A DNA stretch of 64,000 bases from Crassaminicella profunda (GTDB taxonomy: Bacteria; Bacillota; Clostridia; Peptostreptococcales; Thermotaleaceae), in assembly GCF_019884785.1 (NCBI RefSeq), contig NZ_CP082326.1, positions 489,355 through 553,354 on the forward strand, given 5' to 3'. This document shows positions 2,075 to 60,645 of the stretch, piece after piece. Numbering within the stretch: the stretch's first letter is position 1; each line of letters begins with the position of its first letter. The position numbers were made by a program, and so were the translations under genes. Under the pieces are notes generated by a model. The model worked only from the letters and a program-made list of their open reading frames with translations. It was not told the origin of the DNA and did no database searches.

Positions 2075-3987
2075 AAAAAAATAAAATTTTCATAAAGCTT
2101 TTTGCTATGACGGCTGGAGTCGTAATGATTCTTTTAGTGATGCAATTTATTTTTCAATATTTTTGGCTAGAAAAATTTTATGTATATAATAAAAAAGAAA
2201 CCATAAGCAATGAGTTAATCATGTTAAAAGGAAAGCTTGAAAATGGTTTTATTAATCAAGAAAATATAAATAAAACTTTAAATCAATATTCAAGGGAAAA
2301 TGATATATTTATTGGTATTTCTAATAGTCAAGGAATACCTCAATATGGACTTGATGGAGAAGGGAGTCTTTCGTATATTGAAATAGAAGATGATCAAAAG
2401 GAAAACTATAAAATTTATATGAATGCATTCTCGAATGAGCAAGACCTTATAGGAGGATTGAAAATATCAAAAAAAATCCAAGTACAAGGGTCAATTATGA
2501 ATACGAAAGAAAAGAATGTCTATCCAGAGAGTATTACGCTAGAAAATAAAAAGTTTTCAGCAAAAAAGGATGGCGAAATAACAAGTGGTATAGTGATAAC
2601 AAAGGATATTGAAATAGATGATGCATTAGTTGTAGGAAACGTTGAAGGAAATTCAATAGAATTGAACATAGACTGGACAGAAATACCTAAGCCTCAAGAA
2701 ATTCGCCTAAAGGGTAGTATTATAGATATGAATTTAATGAGTGAAGATGATTATGGAATAGAATATCGAAGAAGTCAATTATTGCAAGAAATATTCTCGT
2801 TTTTAGGACAACAAAAGGATTTAAATACGATCTTTAGAGAAAATAAAATGATGCAATATACAAAGGTAGACTCCTTTACGGGAATAAAAAATATTATTTT
2901 TGTTCAACCTTTATTTATTAAAAATAAAGAACCTAGGCTAATGTTTGCTGTAAGCTCTCTTCAACCTATAGAAGAAACAACGGATATTATGAAGACTTAT
3001 TTTTTATTTGCATTGATCATAGCCATGCTTGTAGCTATTATGGTATCTTTTTTATATTCTAAAAAATTTACAAAGCCCCTACTCCATCTAAATGGTGTAA
3101 CGAAAAATATGGCGGATTTAGATTTTTCTCATAAGTGCAGGATTCATACAAATGATGAAATAGAGGATTTGGCTGAAAATATTAATAGTATGTCTGATAA
3201 ATTAAAAAGGACTTTAGAGGAAGTAAAAGAATCTAACGAAAAACTAAAGGAAGAGATTATTTTTAAAGAAAAAATGGAGCAGTTCAGAAAGAGATTTATA
3301 GCAGATGCATCTCATGAGTTGAAAACCCCCCTAACGGTGATGAAAGGAATTTGTGAAGGGGTTGTAGATGGTATTTATGATTATAATGATCATGATCATT
3401 TTAAAAAGATGTTAAATGAAATTAATGATATGAGCCAATTAGTATATGATTTATTAGAAATATCTAAATTAGAATCAGGGAAAGTCCCCTTTAAGAAAGA
3501 GATATTTCAATTATGTGATGTAGTATTAAAAATACATGGTAAATTAAAACCCCTTTTAGAGCGAAAAGAATTAAAAGTACAATTAGATCTAGCAGAGGAT
3601 TTTATAATAGGAGATGAAGATAAGATTGAAAGAGTCATACGAAATCTCTATTCTAATGCGGTTCAATACACACCTGAAAATGGGGAAATAAATATTTATA
3701 TACATCATGATCAAGATCATTGTTATGTAAATATAGAAAATAGCCCTGCTAAAATTTCAAAGGATGACTTATCGAAGATTTGGGAACCTTTTTATCGAAT
3801 TGAAAAATCAAGGAATAAAGCATTAGGAGGAACGGGATTAGGTCTTCATATGGTAAAGGGAATTTTAGATAAGCATGATAGTGAATATGGTATAGAAAAT
3901 ACAGAAAAGGGAGTAAAGGTTTATTTTTCATTGCAAAGGATTGTGGAGGAAATAGAAATTGAATCGGAGCTTGAAAAATCTATATAA
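2071..3987 (+). CDS. Membrane sensor histidine kinase with large extracellular domain
   Basis: 638 residues. A membrane segment at about 10-30 and another at about 310-332 enclose an extracellular region of about 280 residues. The cytoplasmic part has a HAMP domain (about 333-385), a dimerisation/phospho-acceptor helix with His415 in ADASHELKTPLTVMKG, and an ATP-binding domain with N-box NLYSNAVQYTP, WEPFYRIEKSR and GGTGLGLHMVKGI. The extracellular part holds short alternating strands around residues 125-225 (for example ITSGIVITKDIEI and ALVVGNVEG), which look like a stacked beta structure rather than a Cache or PAS fold; this is a visual impression only. It pairs with the overlapping response regulator. 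The ligand is unknown. Confidence 0.92.
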   Translation: MKKNKIFIKLFAMTAGVVMILLVMQFIFQYFWLEKFYVYNKKETISNELIMLKGKLENGFINQENINKTLNQYSRENDIFIGISNSQGIPQYGLDGEGSLSYIEIEDDQKENYKIYMNAFSNEQDLIGGLKISKKIQVQGSIMNTKEKNVYPESITLENKKFSAKKDGEITSGIVITKDIEIDDALVVGNVEGNSIELNIDWTEIPKPQEIRLKGSIIDMNLMSEDDYGIEYRRSQLLQEIFSFLGQQKDLNTIFRENKMMQYTKVDSFTGIKNIIFVQPLFIKNKEPRLMFAVSSLQPIEETTDIMKTYFLFALIIAMLVAIMVSFLYSKKFTKPLLHLNGVTKNMADLDFSHKCRIHTNDEIEDLAENINSMSDKLKRTLEEVKESNEKLKEEIIFKEKMEQFRKRFIADASHELKTPLTVMKGICEGVVDGIYDYNDHDHFKKMLNEINDMSQLVYDLLEISKLESGKVPFKKEIFQLCDVVLKIHGKLKPLLERKELKVQLDLAEDFIIGDEDKIERVIRNLYSNAVQYTPENGEINIYIHHDQDHCYVNIENSPAKISKDDLSKIWEPFYRIEKSRNKALGGTGLGLHMVKGILDKHDSEYGIENTEKGVKVYFSLQRIVEEIEIESELEKSI

Positions 3988-29807: not shown

Positions 29808-29903
29808 AGTTATGAAAAGAGCAAACTAATTGAAAGATTAGGACGCAAAGTATAGAGTCTAAAGTATAATTTAGTTGATGAGTTATACCATGATTGTCTA
29901 ACT
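29808..29903 (+). ncRNA. Cyclic di-GMP-I (GEMM-I) riboswitch
   Basis: The leader carries the GEMM-I core: GCAAACTAAT-TGAAA-GATTAG (P1b with GNRA-type loop), then GACGCAAAG, GTCTAAAG and a second stem TATAA...TTATA followed by CCATGATTG. These are the conserved c-di-GMP contacts. A terminator stem follows directly, and the next gene is a chemotaxis receptor, a typical target. A promoter TTGATT-16-TATAAT lies at 29710-29737. Confidence 0.88.
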
Positions 29904-29942
29904 GCCATGATGCTTTGATATTATGGCAGTTTTTGTGTTTTT
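29901..29942 (+). terminator. Riboswitch expression-platform terminator
   Basis: ACTGCCATgAT pairs with ATtATGGCAGT and is followed by TTTTGTGTTTTTG. It starts at the end of the c-di-GMP aptamer, so ligand binding can decide termination. Confidence 0.85.
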
Positions 29943-29982: not shown

Positions 29983-31800
29983 ATGAAAGCACATAAACAA
30001 AAAAATAAAAGCAATAAAATAAAATATAAAATTATGGCTTCCATTGTGCTAAGTGGACTGATCATTGTATTGTTAACAGCATTTATTGATGTAAGGGCTA
30101 TAAAAGCACAAAACAATAATGAAATGAAATTAATTGAGGAAAAATCTCTTCAAGACTATAATCAAATGATTAAAGATGATGTAAATATAGCATTAGGGAT
30201 GATGCAATATTATTATGATTTGAATCAACAAGGCGTATTAGAGGAAAAAGAAGCAAAGAACCGTGCAATAGAGGCAGTGAAAAGATTAAGATATGGAAAA
30301 GATGATCAAGGATATTTTTGGATAGATGATACACAAGGAAACTTGATAGGACATCCTATGCTTCCTAAAAAAGAAGGAACCAATAGAATTCATATTCAAG
30401 ATCCCAATGGGGTAAAATTAATTGCTGAAATTATTGATACAGCTAAAAAAAATACAGATGGTGGATTTGTGGACTTTATGTGGGAAAAACCTGAAAATGT
30501 AGGAACTGGAGAATTAAGTCCTAAAAGAGCTTATTCTAAATTATTTAAACCTTGGGGATATATTATTAGTACTGGAAATTACATAGATGATATTCATGCT
30601 TCTATCAATTCTCAAAAACTTTTCCTCGAAAAGGAATTGGAAAAGAATATAAAAACGAAAATCATACTAGCAGGTGTGTTTATAATAGGATTAGTTTGTA
30701 TGAGTTTATTTTTAAGTAATAGAATCTCAAAACCTATTATCAAAATGACAAAAAATATTGGAAAAGACGAAAATGGACAAATTAAAATAAATCATCTAGA
30801 AATTCATACAAAGGATGAAATAGGATATTTAGCAGTATCTATCAATGAAATGACAAAGCAAGTGAAGGATTTTTTGAAGGAAACACAAGAGGATACAGAA
30901 TTATTGAATGAGAATATAACAAAAGAAGATGAATTATTATTGAACGTGAATGAAGCCATACATAGCAATACCAACGAAATTTCTATGATAAATGAAGAAA
31001 TTCATTTAGCAGCAGCATCTATTGAAAAAATAGATGAAACATTGTACGAAGTGCAAAAGGCTTTGATGGAAATTGCACAAAAAACGGAAGAAACAACATC
31101 AGTAACTATAGAAGTGAATGAGAGAGCCAATCGTTTGAAAAATGCATCTTTAGAATCAGAAAAAAATACCAAGAACGTTTATGAAGAGGTTAAATACAAT
31201 GTAGAAAAAGCATTAAAGGAAATCGAAACGGTCAATGAAATCAATGTATTAACAGAAAAAATAAATGGGATAGCAGAACAAACAAATCTGCTTTCTCTAA
31301 ATGCATCTATTCAGGCAGCAAGTAGTGGAAGTAATGGCAGTGCTTTTTCAGTTGTTGCCAATGAAATACATAAATTATCAGATAGTGCAAAAGAGACTGC
31401 TAAAAATATACAATTAATTACTGGTAAAATTGTTAATACAGTGAATTATCTAGGGGATAGTACACTAAAGATTATCAATTTTGTTGATCAGGATATATTA
31501 CCTCAATACAATGAAATGGTAATGGCGGCAGATTCTTATTCTAAGGATGCAGAAAATATTCATTATGCAATGGCAGAGTTGAATGCTACTTTTGAAGAAC
31601 TAACAGCATCTTCAAATGAAATATTAGAAAAAAGTAATATAGCAACTGAAAATCTAGTAGATACGACTAAAAGTATGAATCATATAGATCATCAAAATAG
31701 AAAGACTTTAGACCGTATAGTAGAGATCAAACAAAATTCTGGTGATAATTTAAAGAAAATAGCTAGTTTGAAGGAAGTTATAGAGAAATTTAAGCTGTAG
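29983..31800 (+). CDS. Methyl-accepting chemotaxis protein with single Cache sensor domain
   Basis: 605 residues. A membrane segment at about 17-36, a periplasm-side sCache_2 domain (about 40-220) with RYGKDDQGYFWIDDTQGNLIGHP by position and a PWGYIISTGNYIDD ending, a second membrane segment at about 225-246, HAMP (about 247-300), then the coiled signalling domain. The signalling tip reads AEQTNLLSLNASIQAASSG-SNGSAFSVVANEI, where canonical receptors have an acidic Glu and Arg (IEAARAGE-GRGF). These changes may weaken CheA/CheW coupling or mark a special array class. It is controlled by the c-di-GMP riboswitch upstream. RBS AAAGGGGGATT. Confidence 0.93.
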   Translation: MKAHKQKNKSNKIKYKIMASIVLSGLIIVLLTAFIDVRAIKAQNNNEMKLIEEKSLQDYNQMIKDDVNIALGMMQYYYDLNQQGVLEEKEAKNRAIEAVKRLRYGKDDQGYFWIDDTQGNLIGHPMLPKKEGTNRIHIQDPNGVKLIAEIIDTAKKNTDGGFVDFMWEKPENVGTGELSPKRAYSKLFKPWGYIISTGNYIDDIHASINSQKLFLEKELEKNIKTKIILAGVFIIGLVCMSLFLSNRISKPIIKMTKNIGKDENGQIKINHLEIHTKDEIGYLAVSINEMTKQVKDFLKETQEDTELLNENITKEDELLLNVNEAIHSNTNEISMINEEIHLAAASIEKIDETLYEVQKALMEIAQKTEETTSVTIEVNERANRLKNASLESEKNTKNVYEEVKYNVEKALKEIETVNEINVLTEKINGIAEQTNLLSLNASIQAASSGSNGSAFSVVANEIHKLSDSAKETAKNIQLITGKIVNTVNYLGDSTLKIINFVDQDILPQYNEMVMAADSYSKDAENIHYAMAELNATFEELTASSNEILEKSNIATENLVDTTKSMNHIDHQNRKTLDRIVEIKQNSGDNLKKIASLKEVIEKFKL

Positions 31801-45177: not shown

Positions 45178-46077
45178 TTATTGAATCGTAGTATTGTTAG
45201 TAGATTCATCTTTATATTGAAGAAAATCTTTATTCTGTCTAGCTTGTTGAATTAATTTTTTTGTTACTTTTAGAACAAAATCTTGACAGTATTCTCCTGA
45301 ATTACGATCATAACCTTCATCGTGAATTTCACTATTAGATAATATTCTTATTCCTAGGAAAGGAACTTTATATGTTTTTGCAATTTGAGCAGCTGAAGCA
45401 GTTTCCATCTCTTCTACAGATGTAGCATACTTTTCATGAATCCATTTGATGCGATCTAGTTCACGGTTCCATTGATCAGCAGAACCAATAACTCCTTCTA
45501 CTACTTTTCCTTTTTTATAAGTATTCATTACACTTTTTGCAGTTTCAATGAGTGTAGTATTTCCTTCGAAATCTTTTAATTCTTTTATTTCACCATTGAC
45601 ACTTACATTGATATCCATTGGAATCCAGTTTTCTGCATGAATTCCTTTGTTGTAGTCACTATGTTCAGATCTGAAAGAACCAAAATTTACACTTTTTTTA
45701 CCGATGACAATATCATAACGATGTAAAGCAGGATCATGTCCTCCAGAAGTTCCTTGATTAATAATAGCTAAAGGATTAAACTTTTCAATAGCTAATAGGG
45801 TAGATGCAGCAGCATTTGTCATACCTATTTCTGTTTTTGTAACGACTACAGGGTAATTATCAACGGTTCCTTTAAAAAATAACCAACCGCCGTAAGTGAT
45901 TTTTTCAACATTTTGTAATTGTGCTACTAAGTTTTCTGTTTCTACATCCATAGCTCCTTGAATGATGATGGGTCTAGGAGAAGGTTGAGGATTTTCTTTT
46001 TCCTTTGGGTTTGCAAAGCTTACAAGTGTGAAACTCATTAAAGTTGCTAAAATAAATGCTAAAATTCTTTTTTTCAT
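45178..46077 (-). CDS. Exported nucleosidase of the MTA/SAH nucleosidase (PNP/UDP) superfamily
   Basis: 299 residues, about 65 longer than the cytosolic MTAN enzymes because of a signal peptide (ILAFILATLMSFTLVSFANP) and extra loops. Conserved points: IIIQGAMDVETENL (Glu46, aligned with catalytic Glu12 of E. coli MTAN), GMTNAAASTLLAIEKFNP, INQGTSGGHD and EEMETASAAQIA (Glu225, aligned with Glu174 that holds the ribose). The proton-donor Asp197 of MTAN is replaced by Asn248 in RILSNSEIHDE. Asn is what 6-oxopurine-specific trimeric PNP uses at its purine site, so the substrate may be guanosine or inosine rather than MTA. A guanine-type riboswitch in the leader agrees. RBS AGGAAGAGATGAATC. Confidence 0.88.
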   Translation of the reverse strand: MKKRILAFILATLMSFTLVSFANPKEKENPQPSPRPIIIQGAMDVETENLVAQLQNVEKITYGGWLFFKGTVDNYPVVVTKTEIGMTNAAASTLLAIEKFNPLAIINQGTSGGHDPALHRYDIVIGKKSVNFGSFRSEHSDYNKGIHAENWIPMDINVSVNGEIKELKDFEGNTTLIETAKSVMNTYKKGKVVEGVIGSADQWNRELDRIKWIHEKYATSVEEMETASAAQIAKTYKVPFLGIRILSNSEIHDEGYDRNSGEYCQDFVLKVTKKLIQQARQNKDFLQYKDESTNNTTIQ

Positions 46078-46144
46078 GATTCATCTCTTCCTTTCTTATT
46101 TAAAATAATTTATGTAGCTTACAGCTATGTGTTTTTTATTGAAT

Positions 46145-46184
46145 AAAAAACAAAACACCTTATGAATAAATAGGATAAGGTGTT
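46145..46184 (-). terminator. Riboswitch terminator in the nucleosidase leader
   Basis: On the minus strand CACCTTAT...ATAAGGTG is followed by TTTTGTTTTTT, between the purine aptamer and the start codon. Confidence 0.85.
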
Positions 46185-46212
46185 AGAAAGTCATAGGGAT
46201 GACAAAAAAACA

Positions 46213-46279
46213 CTTATAGCCAAAACTATTTACGGTAGTTGGTAGAAACATTTAGCCCATATTGCTAAATTTATACAAG
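46213..46279 (-). ncRNA. Purine (guanine-type) riboswitch
   Basis: On the minus strand: P1 CTTGTA/TATAAG, P2 ATTTAGC/GCTAAAT with loop AATATGG, core GTTTCTACC, P3 with loop CCGTAAA. These are the purine aptamer loops and junction. The base equivalent to C74 is C (GGCTATA), which pairs with guanine or hypoxanthine rather than adenine. The 3' side of P3 seems two bases longer than the 5' side, so a bulge or altered J3/1 is likely. A terminator follows, so ligand probably represses. Confidence 0.85.
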
Positions 46280-46591
46280 TGAACAATTTTTGTATTTAAT
46301 TATAAAATGTTTACATTTATGGATTATACACTATAATTCTACATATTTCAACAAGTGTTTTTATCTATTTTAATAGATAATGTTAATGAATTCCCGAATA
46401 ATAAGCCTTTGCTAGAAATTGGATAGATGAAATTTTCTAGAATTCATGAGAAAATTATGGAAAGAAAATTAAGAAGGATTCATTTTAGAGATGATTAATT
46501 ATTGAATAATATGGTAAAATATGTAGATCCTTTTGTAATCGTAAAAGGATATACCATAGAGGAGAAAGTTTTTTTTAAGGAGGAGAAAAGT

Positions 46592-51886: not shown

Positions 51887-54800
51887 CTATTGATCTTCAA
51901 TATCACCTTCAAGTTCTAAGAAGGTTTTATGAAGTTCATTGACTTGATCATCACTAGCTTGCCAATAACCTCTTTGTGCATACTCTAGCATTTGTTTGAT
52001 AATTTCAAGATAAGCATAAGGATTATTTTCTTTTAGTTGATTTTTCAAAGCTTCATCCATTACATATTGATCATGTAAGGAATGATAAATCCATTGGTCA
52101 ATTTTATTGGTAGTAGCAGCTAATCCTTGAATATTTTCGAATCTATCAGCAATAGTGGTAGTTCCGTGATATTTATGTTTTAACATTTCTTCAATCCATT
52201 TGGGATTAAGAAGCCTTGTTCTAATACCTCGTTCTATGGATTTTTCAATCTTTTCAGTTTCTATATGATCTGTTGTGGTATCAGAGATGAACATTTCACT
52301 TTTTTTGCCACGAATCGTTTCAATAGATTTTGATAAACCACCAAAGAATTCATAATAATGATCTAAATCAACAATTTGATATTCATGATTGCTTCTTACT
52401 TGTGAGATTAATTCAATCATGGATAAATTCTTCTCATAAAGATTTTCAAAGTGTATGCCACGATAATTTTTACTATAGATATATCTCATACTTTCTATAA
52501 AACTTTTACCAATTTCTGATTCTTCCCTCCAAGACTTATCTTTAATAAGGGAAGTTATTTGAGTTCCGTATTGGGATTGGCTAGGACCAAAAATTCGTGA
52601 ATGTGCTAATTCTGCGGCCATTTCTTTTTCATAGCTCTCATTCAATAGATCATTATATAATTTTTTTGTATGGATATGGAAGTAGTTATATCCATTTTCA
52701 TCTCCTAATTGGTCAATATTTTCAAATATTTCATTAAGGAGGATGATGATATTTTCAAACATATCTCTAAAAAAGCCACAAATATTAACGACAACATCTA
52801 TTCTTGGTCGGTTCAATTCTTCTATAGGGATGATTTCAAATTCAGGTTCCCAAATATTTATGGTATTTTTCATACGAACACCTAGATAATATAAAATTTG
52901 TCCTAAAGTTTCTCCTTGTGTACGGCAAGTTTCTAACCCCCATAATATGACAGAGGTTACTTTAGGATATTTACCATGTAACTCATAATAAGTATTTAAG
53001 GTGTTTTGGGCAATTTTTTGTCCCCTTAACATAGCAACAGAAGATGGGATAAATCGACTATCAAATTGATAGAGATTATAACCAGATGGCAATACGTCTG
53101 GATTCCTAATAGGATCTCCACCTATTTTAGCAGGTAGATATTCTCCATTTAAAAATTTGATGAGTCCTTTATTTTCATGATTTTGTTTAATTTTATTGCA
53201 AATAGATAATCCGTAATCAAAAGTTTTTTGTAGTTCCTTCCCATAGATGCTTAGTAAGGGATTATCTATGGGAGCATTTAAATCAATAGTATCAAGAATT
53301 GTTTTTACTTCTTCATCTAATAATTTTAAGGAATGTATTTGATTTTTATCCATTATTTCATCGTAATTTAAGTGATTCTTCTCAGCAACAATTCTTTTTA
53401 AAGATTTTATCTCTCCTCGATCATATTGAAGGATGGAGGAAAATAAGCTTTTTAATGCTGTATTTGAATAAGCTTTACCAAAGATGTGAAGTCCCTTTGG
53501 CATAAGGGAGGACTTCATTTTATACAATTCTTTTTCAATCGTATCTAAATCTTTTTCAAAATGTAAAGTATCGCCTATTTTAAAAATTGCATCTAATAGA
53601 TCTTTGGACCTATCAGGAGATAAATGAAGAGATTCATGGTATTCACCGATCAAGCTTTCTAATTTTGTATAATCTGCATAGAGATTTGCAGTAGTAAATG
53701 CAGGAGGTTGATAACCAATTAAAACAGCATGGGAGCGTCTTTTAGCAATCATTCCTTCTGATGGATTGCCACAATAATAAATATAGCCATGGGGAATATC
53801 TCCAATCAAATAATCAGAGTAACAAGTTTGACTCATGCCGCATTCCTTTCCAGGTAAAAATTCCAATGTGCCATGAGTACCAATATGAAGGATTACATCA
53901 GCATGAAAATCATTCTTTAGCCACTGATAAAAAGCCAAGTATTGGTGATGTGGCGTCATATTTTTATCATGATAGTTAGCATTTTCATCTTCTATAATTC
54001 CCTTTGAAGGTTGTAGACCAATAAAAATATTTTCATTGATAATTCCAGGTATAAAAAAATCTTTTTCAGTAGCCATAATAGACCCAGGAGCATTTCCCCA
54101 TTCTTTGATTACATCATGAACAGGGGAAAAATTATTTACAGAATCCATATAGTTTTCACTCTTATAATGGATGTAGTTTTCTTTTTCATAAAAATACTTA
54201 GGAGAATTAATAAGCCCTTTCTCTAAAAAAGTATTTTGTAAGGATTGTTCATCTAATTCCTTTAGTTTATACCCTTCTTTTTTTAATGTTTTTAAGATTT
54301 CAGAAATAGATGCAAAAGTATCTAAATAAGATGCATGAAACAAATGATCTTCTCCAGGGGGATAATTGTAGCCAATAATAGCTATTTTTTTTTCGGAATT
54401 CTTTTTAGACTGAAGAGATAGCCAGCTTTTTATGCGGTTTACTAGCTTTTCTACTCGTGCATCAATACATGCCATTTCGTAAGCTTGAGTATGTAGATTT
54501 TTAGCTACTCCCTTTGATGAAAGGGCACCAACAGGATAGGTCTCAATAGCACCATCCATTTCAGGAAGCATAATAGATAGCATAAACTCAGAGCTATGAA
54601 TACCTTGAGAAGACTTTTCCCAATCTTCTATTGTTCTTCTAGAAAGGAAAAAAGGATGAAAAAGAGGTACGTTTAATTCCTTAAATAAATCAACCATTCC
54701 TTCAGCATCTCCGCCCATTGGACCGGCACCGATTCTAAAGGGAAGAAAGCTAATGATCATATTTACCTTTTTATCATAGGTTAAAAGTTTCTTTATTTCC

Positions 54801-55585
54801 TTAGGGTCGTTTCCAGAGGTTTTTGTAAAGCCTATAGGAATGATGTTAGCTAGAGATTTTAGTTTTTCTACGATGTTATGAACAGCAAAGGAAGTATCAT
54901 TCGGATAAGTATGACCATAAAAAAGTATACCTATATTTGGTTTCGTAGGATTATATCCGTAGTTTTTTACATAAGAAGCATAGTTTTTATGAAATTTTCT
55001 ATTAAAGGGATCGCAAATCCCCACATCCATTACGTCTATAGGCTCTTCAGGAATCTGAATAGAGGGAACTTCCCCATAATATTTGAGAAGTAAACAAAGC
55101 ATACTTTCTAATTGCGAGAAAGTTGCGTTTTTAAAGTATTTTGTGATATAGGATAGATTACGCATATCTCTTATTTTTCCTGGAATAATTTTGCCTATTT
55201 TTTCAGCCATTGTGATCATTTTTCTTATTTTTTTCATATCAGGTTTTTTTGTAGATTGCATCATTTTATCATTAGCTTTAAAACTTCCAAGTTTCATAAA
55301 ATCTCGTGCAGACTCTCCAATGGGAATGACTTGTCCCTTATAAGTTTCTAAACTCTCATAAACAATCTCTACAATTTTCTTTGGACTACCCATTAAATCT
55401 ACAATGATTGCATCAGAAGTGCATATATCTTCTTTGATTCTTAAATATTCATCATTAGAAAAATTTGAAGCAGCATAATGAAGATTTAAATCAAGAGGTT
55501 GATTCATTTGTGAATTTATTTTCTCTAGTACAACTGGAATTGTTGTCAGTACAGTTGTTGAAACAGTTATAATACAAAGGTTCAT
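51887..55585 (-). CDS. cobN: CobN/BchH-type cobaltochelatase or magnesium chelatase large subunit
   Basis: 1232 residues, typical for CobN. Recognisable blocks: IGILFYGHTYPNDTSFAVHNIV by position 230, a central HADVILHIGTHGTLEFLPGKECGMSQ by position 575 (porphyrin/corrin-binding and catalytic block), IGDIPHGYIYYCGNPSEG, and TSVILWGLETCRTQGETLGQILY by position 865. It holds the macrocycle while metal is inserted, with AAA+ I and D subunits giving ATP power; both are encoded on the opposite strand 97 bases away. True aerobic cobaltochelatase is not expected in an anaerobe, so the macrocycle here is uncertain. RBS AGGAGGCTGTATCC. Confidence 0.9.
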   Translation of the reverse strand: MNLCIITVSTTVLTTIPVVLEKINSQMNQPLDLNLHYAASNFSNDEYLRIKEDICTSDAIIVDLMGSPKKIVEIVYESLETYKGQVIPIGESARDFMKLGSFKANDKMMQSTKKPDMKKIRKMITMAEKIGKIIPGKIRDMRNLSYITKYFKNATFSQLESMLCLLLKYYGEVPSIQIPEEPIDVMDVGICDPFNRKFHKNYASYVKNYGYNPTKPNIGILFYGHTYPNDTSFAVHNIVEKLKSLANIIPIGFTKTSGNDPKEIKKLLTYDKKVNMIISFLPFRIGAGPMGGDAEGMVDLFKELNVPLFHPFFLSRRTIEDWEKSSQGIHSSEFMLSIMLPEMDGAIETYPVGALSSKGVAKNLHTQAYEMACIDARVEKLVNRIKSWLSLQSKKNSEKKIAIIGYNYPPGEDHLFHASYLDTFASISEILKTLKKEGYKLKELDEQSLQNTFLEKGLINSPKYFYEKENYIHYKSENYMDSVNNFSPVHDVIKEWGNAPGSIMATEKDFFIPGIINENIFIGLQPSKGIIEDENANYHDKNMTPHHQYLAFYQWLKNDFHADVILHIGTHGTLEFLPGKECGMSQTCYSDYLIGDIPHGYIYYCGNPSEGMIAKRRSHAVLIGYQPPAFTTANLYADYTKLESLIGEYHESLHLSPDRSKDLLDAIFKIGDTLHFEKDLDTIEKELYKMKSSLMPKGLHIFGKAYSNTALKSLFSSILQYDRGEIKSLKRIVAEKNHLNYDEIMDKNQIHSLKLLDEEVKTILDTIDLNAPIDNPLLSIYGKELQKTFDYGLSICNKIKQNHENKGLIKFLNGEYLPAKIGGDPIRNPDVLPSGYNLYQFDSRFIPSSVAMLRGQKIAQNTLNTYYELHGKYPKVTSVILWGLETCRTQGETLGQILYYLGVRMKNTINIWEPEFEIIPIEELNRPRIDVVVNICGFFRDMFENIIILLNEIFENIDQLGDENGYNYFHIHTKKLYNDLLNESYEKEMAAELAHSRIFGPSQSQYGTQITSLIKDKSWREESEIGKSFIESMRYIYSKNYRGIHFENLYEKNLSMIELISQVRSNHEYQIVDLDHYYEFFGGLSKSIETIRGKKSEMFISDTTTDHIETEKIEKSIERGIRTRLLNPKWIEEMLKHKYHGTTTIADRFENIQGLAATTNKIDQWIYHSLHDQYVMDEALKNQLKENNPYAYLEIIKQMLEYAQRGYWQASDDQVNELHKTFLELEGDIEDQ

Positions 55586-59709: not shown

Positions 59710-59764
59710 ATGAAAATAAAAGGAAAAATGTTACATTTGGTATATATGTCTAGGAAAAATGAAT

Positions 59765-59935
59765 AGATAGCTTTTAGGTTCTTTTATCGTTAGGATAAAG
59801 GATGAAAAGGGAATCGAGTGAAAATCTCGAACGGTCCGGCCACTGTAAATGGGGAGTGATCCTTCAATCTGCCACTGAAAATTTTTGGGAAGGCGAAGGA
59901 AAACGATAATCCATAAGTCAGGAGACCTGCCAAAA
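59765..59935 (+). ncRNA. Cobalamin riboswitch
   Basis: Conserved elements in order: AGGTTC (59776), GGGAATCGAGTGAAAATC, CGGTCCGGCCACTGTAA, AGTGATCC, GCCACTGAAA, GGGAAGGCGAAGG, and the B12 box AGTCAGGAGACCTGCC (59917-59931). This is the full adenosyl/hydroxo-cobalamin aptamer layout. A terminator lies 90 bases further, before a small exported protein gene. Confidence 0.95.
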
Positions 59936-60023
59936 GCTTTAGGTATATATCCTTCCGAGAAAAGGACCAATACTATATGAAACTTGTTTATAATCAATAA
60001 AATAAGTGAAATTGTATATTATG

Positions 60024-60210: not shown

Positions 60211-60645
60211 ATGATAAAGTCTATGAAGAAAACATCAGTACTTATAGTAGCGTTGATGATGCTTTTATCATTAAATGTTGTACATGCAGCTTCAGATGTG
60301 AATGTTGCTATTTATAAGGATGGTTCTACTACGAAGCTTTCCATGTCAAATGATACGATTGTTCCAGGATCACAGAAGTTGGTCATGAATGGAGACGAAG
60401 CAATACTTACATTTCATATTCAACCAATGAAGTTTATGGGTATACCTGGAAATTTAGTGAAATTATCAGTTGATTTTGGAGATGGAAATTATATTCCTGC
60501 AAGTTTTGTGGGGGATAAAGTAACACTTAAGTTCCCAGCTTCTAAATTGAAAGATGGTAAGAATTTTTATCCTGCAAAAGTAAAAAGCAATGTATGGGTG
60601 ATTACAATCCCAACTAGTGATGTTGAGTTTTGTATTACAAAGTAA
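60211..60645 (+). CDS. Small exported protein, NEAT-like
   Basis: 144 residues. Signal peptide KTSVLIVALMMLLSLNVVHAAS, so exported without a lipobox. The mature 115 residues are a single beta-rich domain: VNVAIYKDGS, LVMNGDEAILTFHIQPMKFMG, VKLSVDFGDGNYIPAS, KVTLKFPASKLKDGKN, WVITIPTSDVEF. The length and strand pattern resemble a NEAT (heme-binding) domain, but the YxxxY heme motif is not visible, so this is tentative. Being the first gene after a B12 riboswitch, it may bind a corrinoid or related tetrapyrrole at the cell surface. RBS AAAGGGGGGAAACA. Confidence 0.8.
   Translation: MIKSMKKTSVLIVALMMLLSLNVVHAASDVNVAIYKDGSTTKLSMSNDTIVPGSQKLVMNGDEAILTFHIQPMKFMGIPGNLVKLSVDFGDGNYIPASFVGDKVTLKFPASKLKDGKNFYPAKVKSNVWVITIPTSDVEFCITK

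Follow-up and report, generated by a model that had tools for sequence, protein, structure and literature searches.

The window analyzed here is a stretch of 64,000 nucleotides of the Crassaminicella profunda genome (NZ_CP082326.1, positions 489,355 to 553,354). The locus under study lies on its reverse strand and contains an open reading frame that starts with ATG, preceded by a regulatory leader, with the following features in order of transcription:

46323..46351 (-), sigma-70-like promoter upstream of the aptamer, TTGAAA-17-TATAAT, 11 of 12 consensus matches
46298-46197 (-), guanine-type purine riboswitch aptamer (RF00167), with a P1-to-P1 core at about 46281-46209
46209..46217 (-), 3' strand of P1, AUAAGUGUU, the alternative partner of the terminator 5' arm, i.e. 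the antiterminator (from folds of growing transcripts)
46145..46184 (-), intrinsic terminator, arms AACACCUUAU and AUAAGGUGUU, then UUGUUUUUU (from sequence and folds)
45178..46077 (-), exported nucleosidase of the PNP_UDP_1/MTAN fold, 299 aa (from the ORF, Pfam, and sequence and structure comparison)
46012..46077 (-), signal peptide, residues 1-22, MKKRILAFILATLMSFTLVSFA followed by NP, likely cut after SFA (from hydropathy and the -3/-1 pattern)
45940..45942 (-), codon of Glu46, aligned with the catalytic Glu12 of MTAN (from sequence and alignment)
45334..45336 (-), codon of Asn248, aligned with Asp197 of MTAN (from sequence and alignment)

The gene stands alone, with no adjoining purine gene seen, and when the gene neighbors of the 22 family loci described below were inspected by eye, no purine partner was recognized.

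The encoded protein matched Pfam PNP_UDP_1 with an E value of 1.7e-36. It missed by a hair the cut-off of TIGR01704, an MTA/SAH nucleosidase equivalog model (73.7 versus 73.8 bits), and scored below those of NF004079, another MTA/SAH nucleosidase equivalog (112.4 versus 169 bits), and of the futalosine hydrolase model TIGR03664 (56 versus 124.7 bits). Four of the six relatives scanned (L004, L026, L033 and L035) reached the TIGR01704 cut-off and none reached that of NF004079, and it is as MTA/SAH nucleosidases that the relatives are named in public records. The nearest solved proteins by sequence were the 5b7 entries of Aeromonas hydrophila (E 4.8e-81). An AF2 model of the window protein, built on four sequences, had a mean pLDDT of 69.5, a pTM of 0.75 and six low segments. 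It was superimposed on the Aeromonas structure 5b7q with a Z score of 24.2 and an rmsd of 2.4 over 198 aligned residues (50% identity) and on E. coli MTAN (1nc3) with a Z score of 21.9 and an rmsd of 2.8 over 200 residues; Foldseek overlays gave rmsd values near 10, reflecting the low segments of the model. A mean pLDDT of this level is too poor for docking. An earlier, sequence-only reading of this DNA had noted MTAN-like fold motifs and had proposed structure prediction and overlay on MTAN as a check, and both the Pfam match and, within the quality of the model, the overlays agree with it.

That reading had also recognized a signal peptide, which inspection and hydropathy placed as given above, and export of the window protein is well supported in silico. 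Export calls were made with a hydropathy script, motifs and inspection, with start codons chosen by hand. Hydropathy and motifs indicated an export signal in 19 of the 22 family members, while hydropathy gave none for L027, L029 and L030; a lipobox was seen in five members (L004, L006, L024, L032 and L035), and L022 was ambiguous. The genome additionally encodes an MTAN with Asp at the purine site and without an evident signal peptide.

The residues of the presumed purine site were compared in an alignment of 57 proteins, in which the family was represented by the window protein and 22 loci, i.e. 23 rows but 22 distinct proteins, as those of L005 and L031 are identical. The futalosine hydrolase set comprised every locus above the TIGR03664 cut-off in 249 genomes (19 loci in 19 genomes), and the MTAN set (n = 13) all non-family TIGR01704 matches at E 1e-20 in 61 genomes; L056, a futalosine match below the cut-off, was dropped, and so were L058 (a duplicate of the genome's own MTAN) and L069 (the same gene as L026) from the MTAN count. 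At the position of MTAN Asp197, where the sequence-only reading had pointed out an Asn, the window protein has Asn248. By this alignment, all 23 family rows, the Aeromonas structure and each of the 19 futalosine hydrolases have Asn at the site, and the 13 MTANs without exception have Asp; the local letters are LSN in the window protein versus SD in the MTANs. Judged from these sequences, the Asn signature is well supported in silico as a fixed feature of the sampled clade. Glu12 of MTAN is catalytic and Glu174 binds ribose, and both sites (Glu46 and Glu225 of the window protein) are Glu in every family row. Arg244 (MTAN Arg193) is kept in 23 of 23 rows and Ser247 (MTAN Ser196) in 22 of 23, while Gln108, His114 and Asp115 are each invariant. 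Trp203 is likewise found in all 23 rows and Asn204 in 22 of them, at positions where the MTANs have Phe (11 of 13) and Ile or Val (13 of 13), respectively. PNPs of the DeoD type carry a phosphate-binding Arg at the position of MTAN Glu12. The hexameric-type PNP of the same genome (DeoD, the sole one compared) has this Arg, whereas the family has Glu, and a phosphorylase reading was rejected because the phosphate site holds Glu rather than Arg.

As a precedent for the Asn, the earlier reading had named trimeric PNPs, in which an Asn serves 6-oxopurines, and the letters SCMTNMAAG are common to the trimeric-type PNP of this genome and its nearest solved relative. A closer precedent than that one is futalosine hydrolase, whose product is hypoxanthine and which has the Asn in all 19 sequences. 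Beside the trimeric-type PNP gene (locus L013 of the same genome) lie a deoB-like ORF and, at 2340-3626, an ORF that by eye resembles an amidohydrolase of the MTA/SAH deaminase type.

A maximum-likelihood tree with a midpoint root was built from 56 proteins, leaving out DeoD and L031 (the same protein as L005). The family including the Aeromonas structure formed one group in it (23 rows, support 100/99) and the futalosine hydrolases a separate one (19 rows, 100/99). The 13 MTAN rows made up the third group, which with a support of 92/57 is less firm. With this rooting, the MTANs were the nearest group to the family; the deeper joins of the tree carry a long-branch warning, and the joining point of the futalosine group was left unused. 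The candidate identity of a futalosine hydrolase proper was rejected on account of the TIGR03664 score given above and the separate group in the tree.

In the leader, the promoter match is weak by itself, because the region holds nine such sites versus a mean of 8.9 in shuffled sequence. The aptamer scored 77.3 bits with RF00167 (gathering cut-off 37; E 4.7e-12 for the window) and keeps both the specificity base C74 and U51. Its P1 stem starts near 46281, so the edge at 46279 adopted in the earlier reading clips P1. The J3/1 junction reads GGCUA versus the consensus GACUA, a change (A73G) located beside specificity base 74. The terminator has its arms at 46184-46175 and 46163-46154, a loop of 11 and a U-rich tail at 46153-46145, and it was absent from the list of a generic terminator scan that covers loops of 3-8 only. 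The score, C74 and the terminator seen in the folds corroborate what had been read by eye, namely a purine aptamer and terminator with C at the specificity base.

The folds were computed as unliganded lowest-energy structures of growing transcripts of the window leader. In transcripts of 116 and 131 nt the aptamer was formed, whereas at 144 and 153 nt AACACCUUAU captured the 3' strand of P1, so that the antiterminator appears in these folds as soon as the terminator 5' arm has been transcribed. At 161 nt the aptamer and the terminator were both present, and at 172 nt the antiterminator pairing was again lowest (-27.5), about level with the separate aptamer and terminator (-26.5 in a shorter construct). 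A classical OFF arrangement is predicted for this leader, and the leaders of L004 and L005 contain the same elements. Purine control of the gene is well supported in silico, and the presence of aptamer, antiterminator and terminator lends support of the same kind to repression by transcription termination, in line with the earlier suggestion that the gene is switched off when purine is plentiful. The leaders of Bacillaceae (L006, L024 and L034) differ in sequence from the clostridial ones; for L006 and L024, the free folds had the 3' side of P1 captured by a downstream stretch, with the terminator still formed (shortened in L006), and the free fold of L034 gave no clean alternative. The off-switch logic predicted by folding is clear in the clostridial leaders only.

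We also compared 11 aptamers, for which the J1/2 letters were read from Rfam alignments. C74 and U51 were present in all of them, and position 73 was A in seven, G in three (the window, L004 and L005) and C in the one before the genome's own xpt. A ligand changed via position 73 was set aside, because the own xpt aptamer has C there and the variant classes consulted in the literature carry other changes, and we regard a ligand change due to this position as less likely.

An aptamer at gathering score was found upstream in six of the 22 distinct family loci (the window, L004, L005, L006, L024 and L034), and these six fall in two separate parts of the tree; L005 and L031, the latter also carrying an aptamer, were counted once. 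The remaining 16 loci had no purine riboswitch at the gathering score, and none of the three Gammaproteobacterial family loci had a purine aptamer. About 1.5 kb of upstream flank was searched, and absence is less sure at L019, where the contig extends only about 420 bases upstream of the gene. The genome of the window has six purine aptamers in 4.59 Mb. Treating the 19 other loci as independent gives a chance value of about 1e-13, which is far too small because the loci are related, and counting two events only gives about 2e-6. All five other aptamers of this genome have C74. At L007 and L012 they precede NCS2-type permeases of the Xan_ur_permease family, and at L008 they precede xpt, behind which lies the gene of a PnrA-like Bmp protein that by eye has a lipobox. 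The aptamer of L009 stands before a PbuX-like permease, which scores 406 of 414 bits with TIGR03173 and exceeds the cut-off of the NCS2 superfamily, and that of L010 before IMP dehydrogenase. This remainder of the purine-riboswitch regulon is compatible with base salvage, and an exported nucleosidase would provide the bases for its permeases to take up. At L007 (1501-1686), a Guanidine-I match scoring 66.6 bits (cut-off 63) directly succeeds the purine aptamer and overlaps it by 16 bases, and the two may form a tandem riboswitch of the ykkC kind.

We consider it probable that the window protein is an extracytoplasmic 6-oxopurine nucleosidase, i.e. a secreted MTAN-fold hydrolase whose products supply base permeases and whose gene is shut off by guanine. 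Of the earlier proposal of an extracellular purine-salvage enzyme, the export, the repression and the purine-site Asn hold up in silico and the regulon fits base salvage; the ligand, the substrate, hydrolysis as opposed to phosphorolysis and the destination of the products are what we infer. The sequence of events would be as follows. Under guanine shortage, the P1 stem of the aptamer would open and its 3' strand would pair with the 5' arm of the terminator, allowing the gene to be transcribed. The nucleosidase would be exported via its signal peptide and, outside the membrane, would hydrolyze guanosine, inosine or the 2'-deoxy forms of these to the base and the sugar, with Asn248 taking the proton on N7 and donating to O6, where the Asp of MTAN would serve a 6-amino group. 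The freed bases would enter through the permeases of the same guanine regulon, and Xpt and other transferases would convert them to nucleotides. With guanine plentiful, the aptamer would hold P1 and transcription would stop.

On this sequence evidence, the adenine-compound label of the relatives (MTA/SAH nucleosidase) is likely wrong, since the pocket Asn points to guanine- or hypoxanthine-type bases. We put this as likely only, because the Aeromonas relative with the same Asn has been published as a periplasmic MTA/SAH nucleosidase, according to the title of that paper and to sentences citing it (Xu et al. 2017, Biochemistry 56:5347; PDB 5b7g, 5b7n, 5b7p and 5b7q). It is cited as a periplasmic MTA/SAH nucleosidase in an excerpt of one review (PMC6302742), as an MTA/SAH nucleosidase in that of another (PMC6371041), and is so treated in the available portion of a docking paper (PMC9862385).

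This published identity, the names in public records, the four of six scanned relatives that reached the TIGR01704 cut-off and the position of the MTANs as the nearest group on the midpoint-rooted tree all speak for a genuine MTA/SAH (or adenosine) nucleosidase outside the cell. In this reading, the Asn would leave the adenine chemistry intact, the riboswitch would report purine need and the adenine would be salvaged. A guanine riboswitch also suits an adenine-releasing enzyme, and therefore the substrate is not settled by the riboswitch. We nevertheless hold an MTA/SAH nucleosidase to be rather unlikely, given that the MTANs have Asp in 13 of 13 cases, that MTANs of E. coli and H. pylori with an Asp-to-Asn mutation hold the uncleaved substrate, being listed with MTA or SAH itself in the titles of PDB entries 1z5o, 4p54 and 4oy3, that the window protein misses both TIGR01704 and NF004079, and that the genome already has an Asp-bearing MTAN without an evident signal peptide. 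Another 6-oxopurine substrate, such as xanthosine, 5'-methylthioinosine or S-inosylhomocysteine, or a deazaguanine nucleoside, seems to us improbable: xpt and a PbuX-like permease belong to the regulon, and the amidohydrolase-like ORF (MTA/SAH deaminase type by eye) adjoins the trimeric-type PNP, but nothing was found tying such compounds to the cell exterior. A role in binding purines or nucleosides without catalysis, as is said of some plant relatives in the superfamily, would fit the replacement of a residue with a catalytic role in MTAN, but is very improbable in view of the retention of Glu46, Glu225 and Arg244 in 23 of 23 rows and of Ser247 in 22 of 23.

If the protein is a 6-oxopurine nucleosidase, as we prefer, outside nucleosides would become a guanine source in some Bacillota, and the guanine riboswitch regulon would gain an extracellular base-releasing step. 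Throughout the MTAN fold, a single residue would then distinguish the nucleosidases of 6-oxopurines from those of 6-aminopurines, providing a simple rule for correcting automatic labels, and the published MTA/SAH nucleosidase would merit a second look. The broader proposition, that the whole clade including the crystal structure is misnamed and consists of extracytoplasmic guanosine/inosine-type nucleosidases derived from the MTAN fold by an Asp-to-Asn change, in some Bacillota under a guanine riboswitch, appears to us evenly poised between true and false; should the MTA kinetics of the Aeromonas enzyme be solid, the Asn rule would fail for the clade.

Among known systems, futalosine hydrolase MqnB (TIGR03664) resembles the window protein in its MTAN-like family, the Glu at the Glu12 site and the Asn at the Asp197 site, and its leaving group is a 6-oxopurine, as proposed here, but it belongs to a separate clade, the window protein misses its cut-off, and MqnB acts in the menaquinone pathway. 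E. coli MTAN/Pfs (1jys, 1nc3) shares the fold and the residues Glu12, Glu174, Arg193 and Ser196, whereas its Asp197, Phe151 and Ile152 are replaced by Asn, Trp and Asn; unlike MTAN, the window protein is exported and its gene stands under a guanine-type riboswitch. The Aeromonas enzyme is of the same clade, is described as periplasmic and has the same Asn, Trp-Asn, Gln-Gly-Thr and His-Asp letters, but differs in its Gram-negative host and in its published substrate, MTA/SAH. With the guanine-I riboswitches (RF00167, as before xpt and pbuX) the leader has in common the three-way junction, C74, U51, the GG/CC loop letters and, by prediction, the OFF-type terminator/antiterminator platform, and it differs from them in preceding an exported nucleosidase and in the G at position 73. 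According to PMC9295807, 2'-dG-III aptamers, which are also of the purine class, occur only before purine nucleoside hydrolase genes, deviate in all three junctions and are predicted to be ON switches, whereas the window leader is near-canonical with one junction change (A73G) and predicted OFF. In the portion of PMC11477304 available, four C. difficile purine riboswitches are placed before guaA, two permeases and xpt, with a nucleosidase not among them, and in the titles and abstract beginnings of the open-licence literature we recognized no paper linking a guanine or purine riboswitch to such an enzyme.

The clade is widely spread, with members in Clostridia and Bacillaceae and in records from Pantoea, Acinetobacter, Photobacterium and Aeromonas. 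Its distribution is patchy: at E 1e-30, a match was present in 14 of 398 genomes of a phylum sample and in 3 of 198 of an order sample, each including the genome of the window, and no family match was present at this threshold in two further genomes of the window's genus in the order sample. Further genome searches around G237 and G355 brought no new family members. Eight of the 11 plasmid-collection records with a match belong to the family by identity (42.9-49.8%) and derive from Pantoea, Metabacillus, Acinetobacter (five) and Photobacterium; the remaining matches (H9-H11) have about 30% identity. The protein of L031, from a genome of the window's genus, is identical to that of L005, which was deposited as a Marinisporobacter MAG. 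Four members (L018, L019, L021 and L022) have a C-terminal extension of about 110 residues, and in the two that were profile-tested, L018 and L022, a C-terminal Cu_amine_oxidN1 domain was found. In L023 (about 2200-2561), the frame seems broken directly behind LSN, and a second ORF encodes the C-terminal part.

Elsewhere in the window, a c-di-GMP-I riboswitch (29810-29909, + strand, 67.4 bits) precedes an ORF of 605 aa (29983-31800) that by eye is methyl-accepting chemotaxis protein-like, and a Cobalamin riboswitch (59759-59948, + strand, 124.9 bits) precedes one of 144 aa (60211-60645) for a small, probably exported protein. The ORF at 51887-55585 on the reverse strand is CobN/magnesium chelatase subunit H-like by eye.
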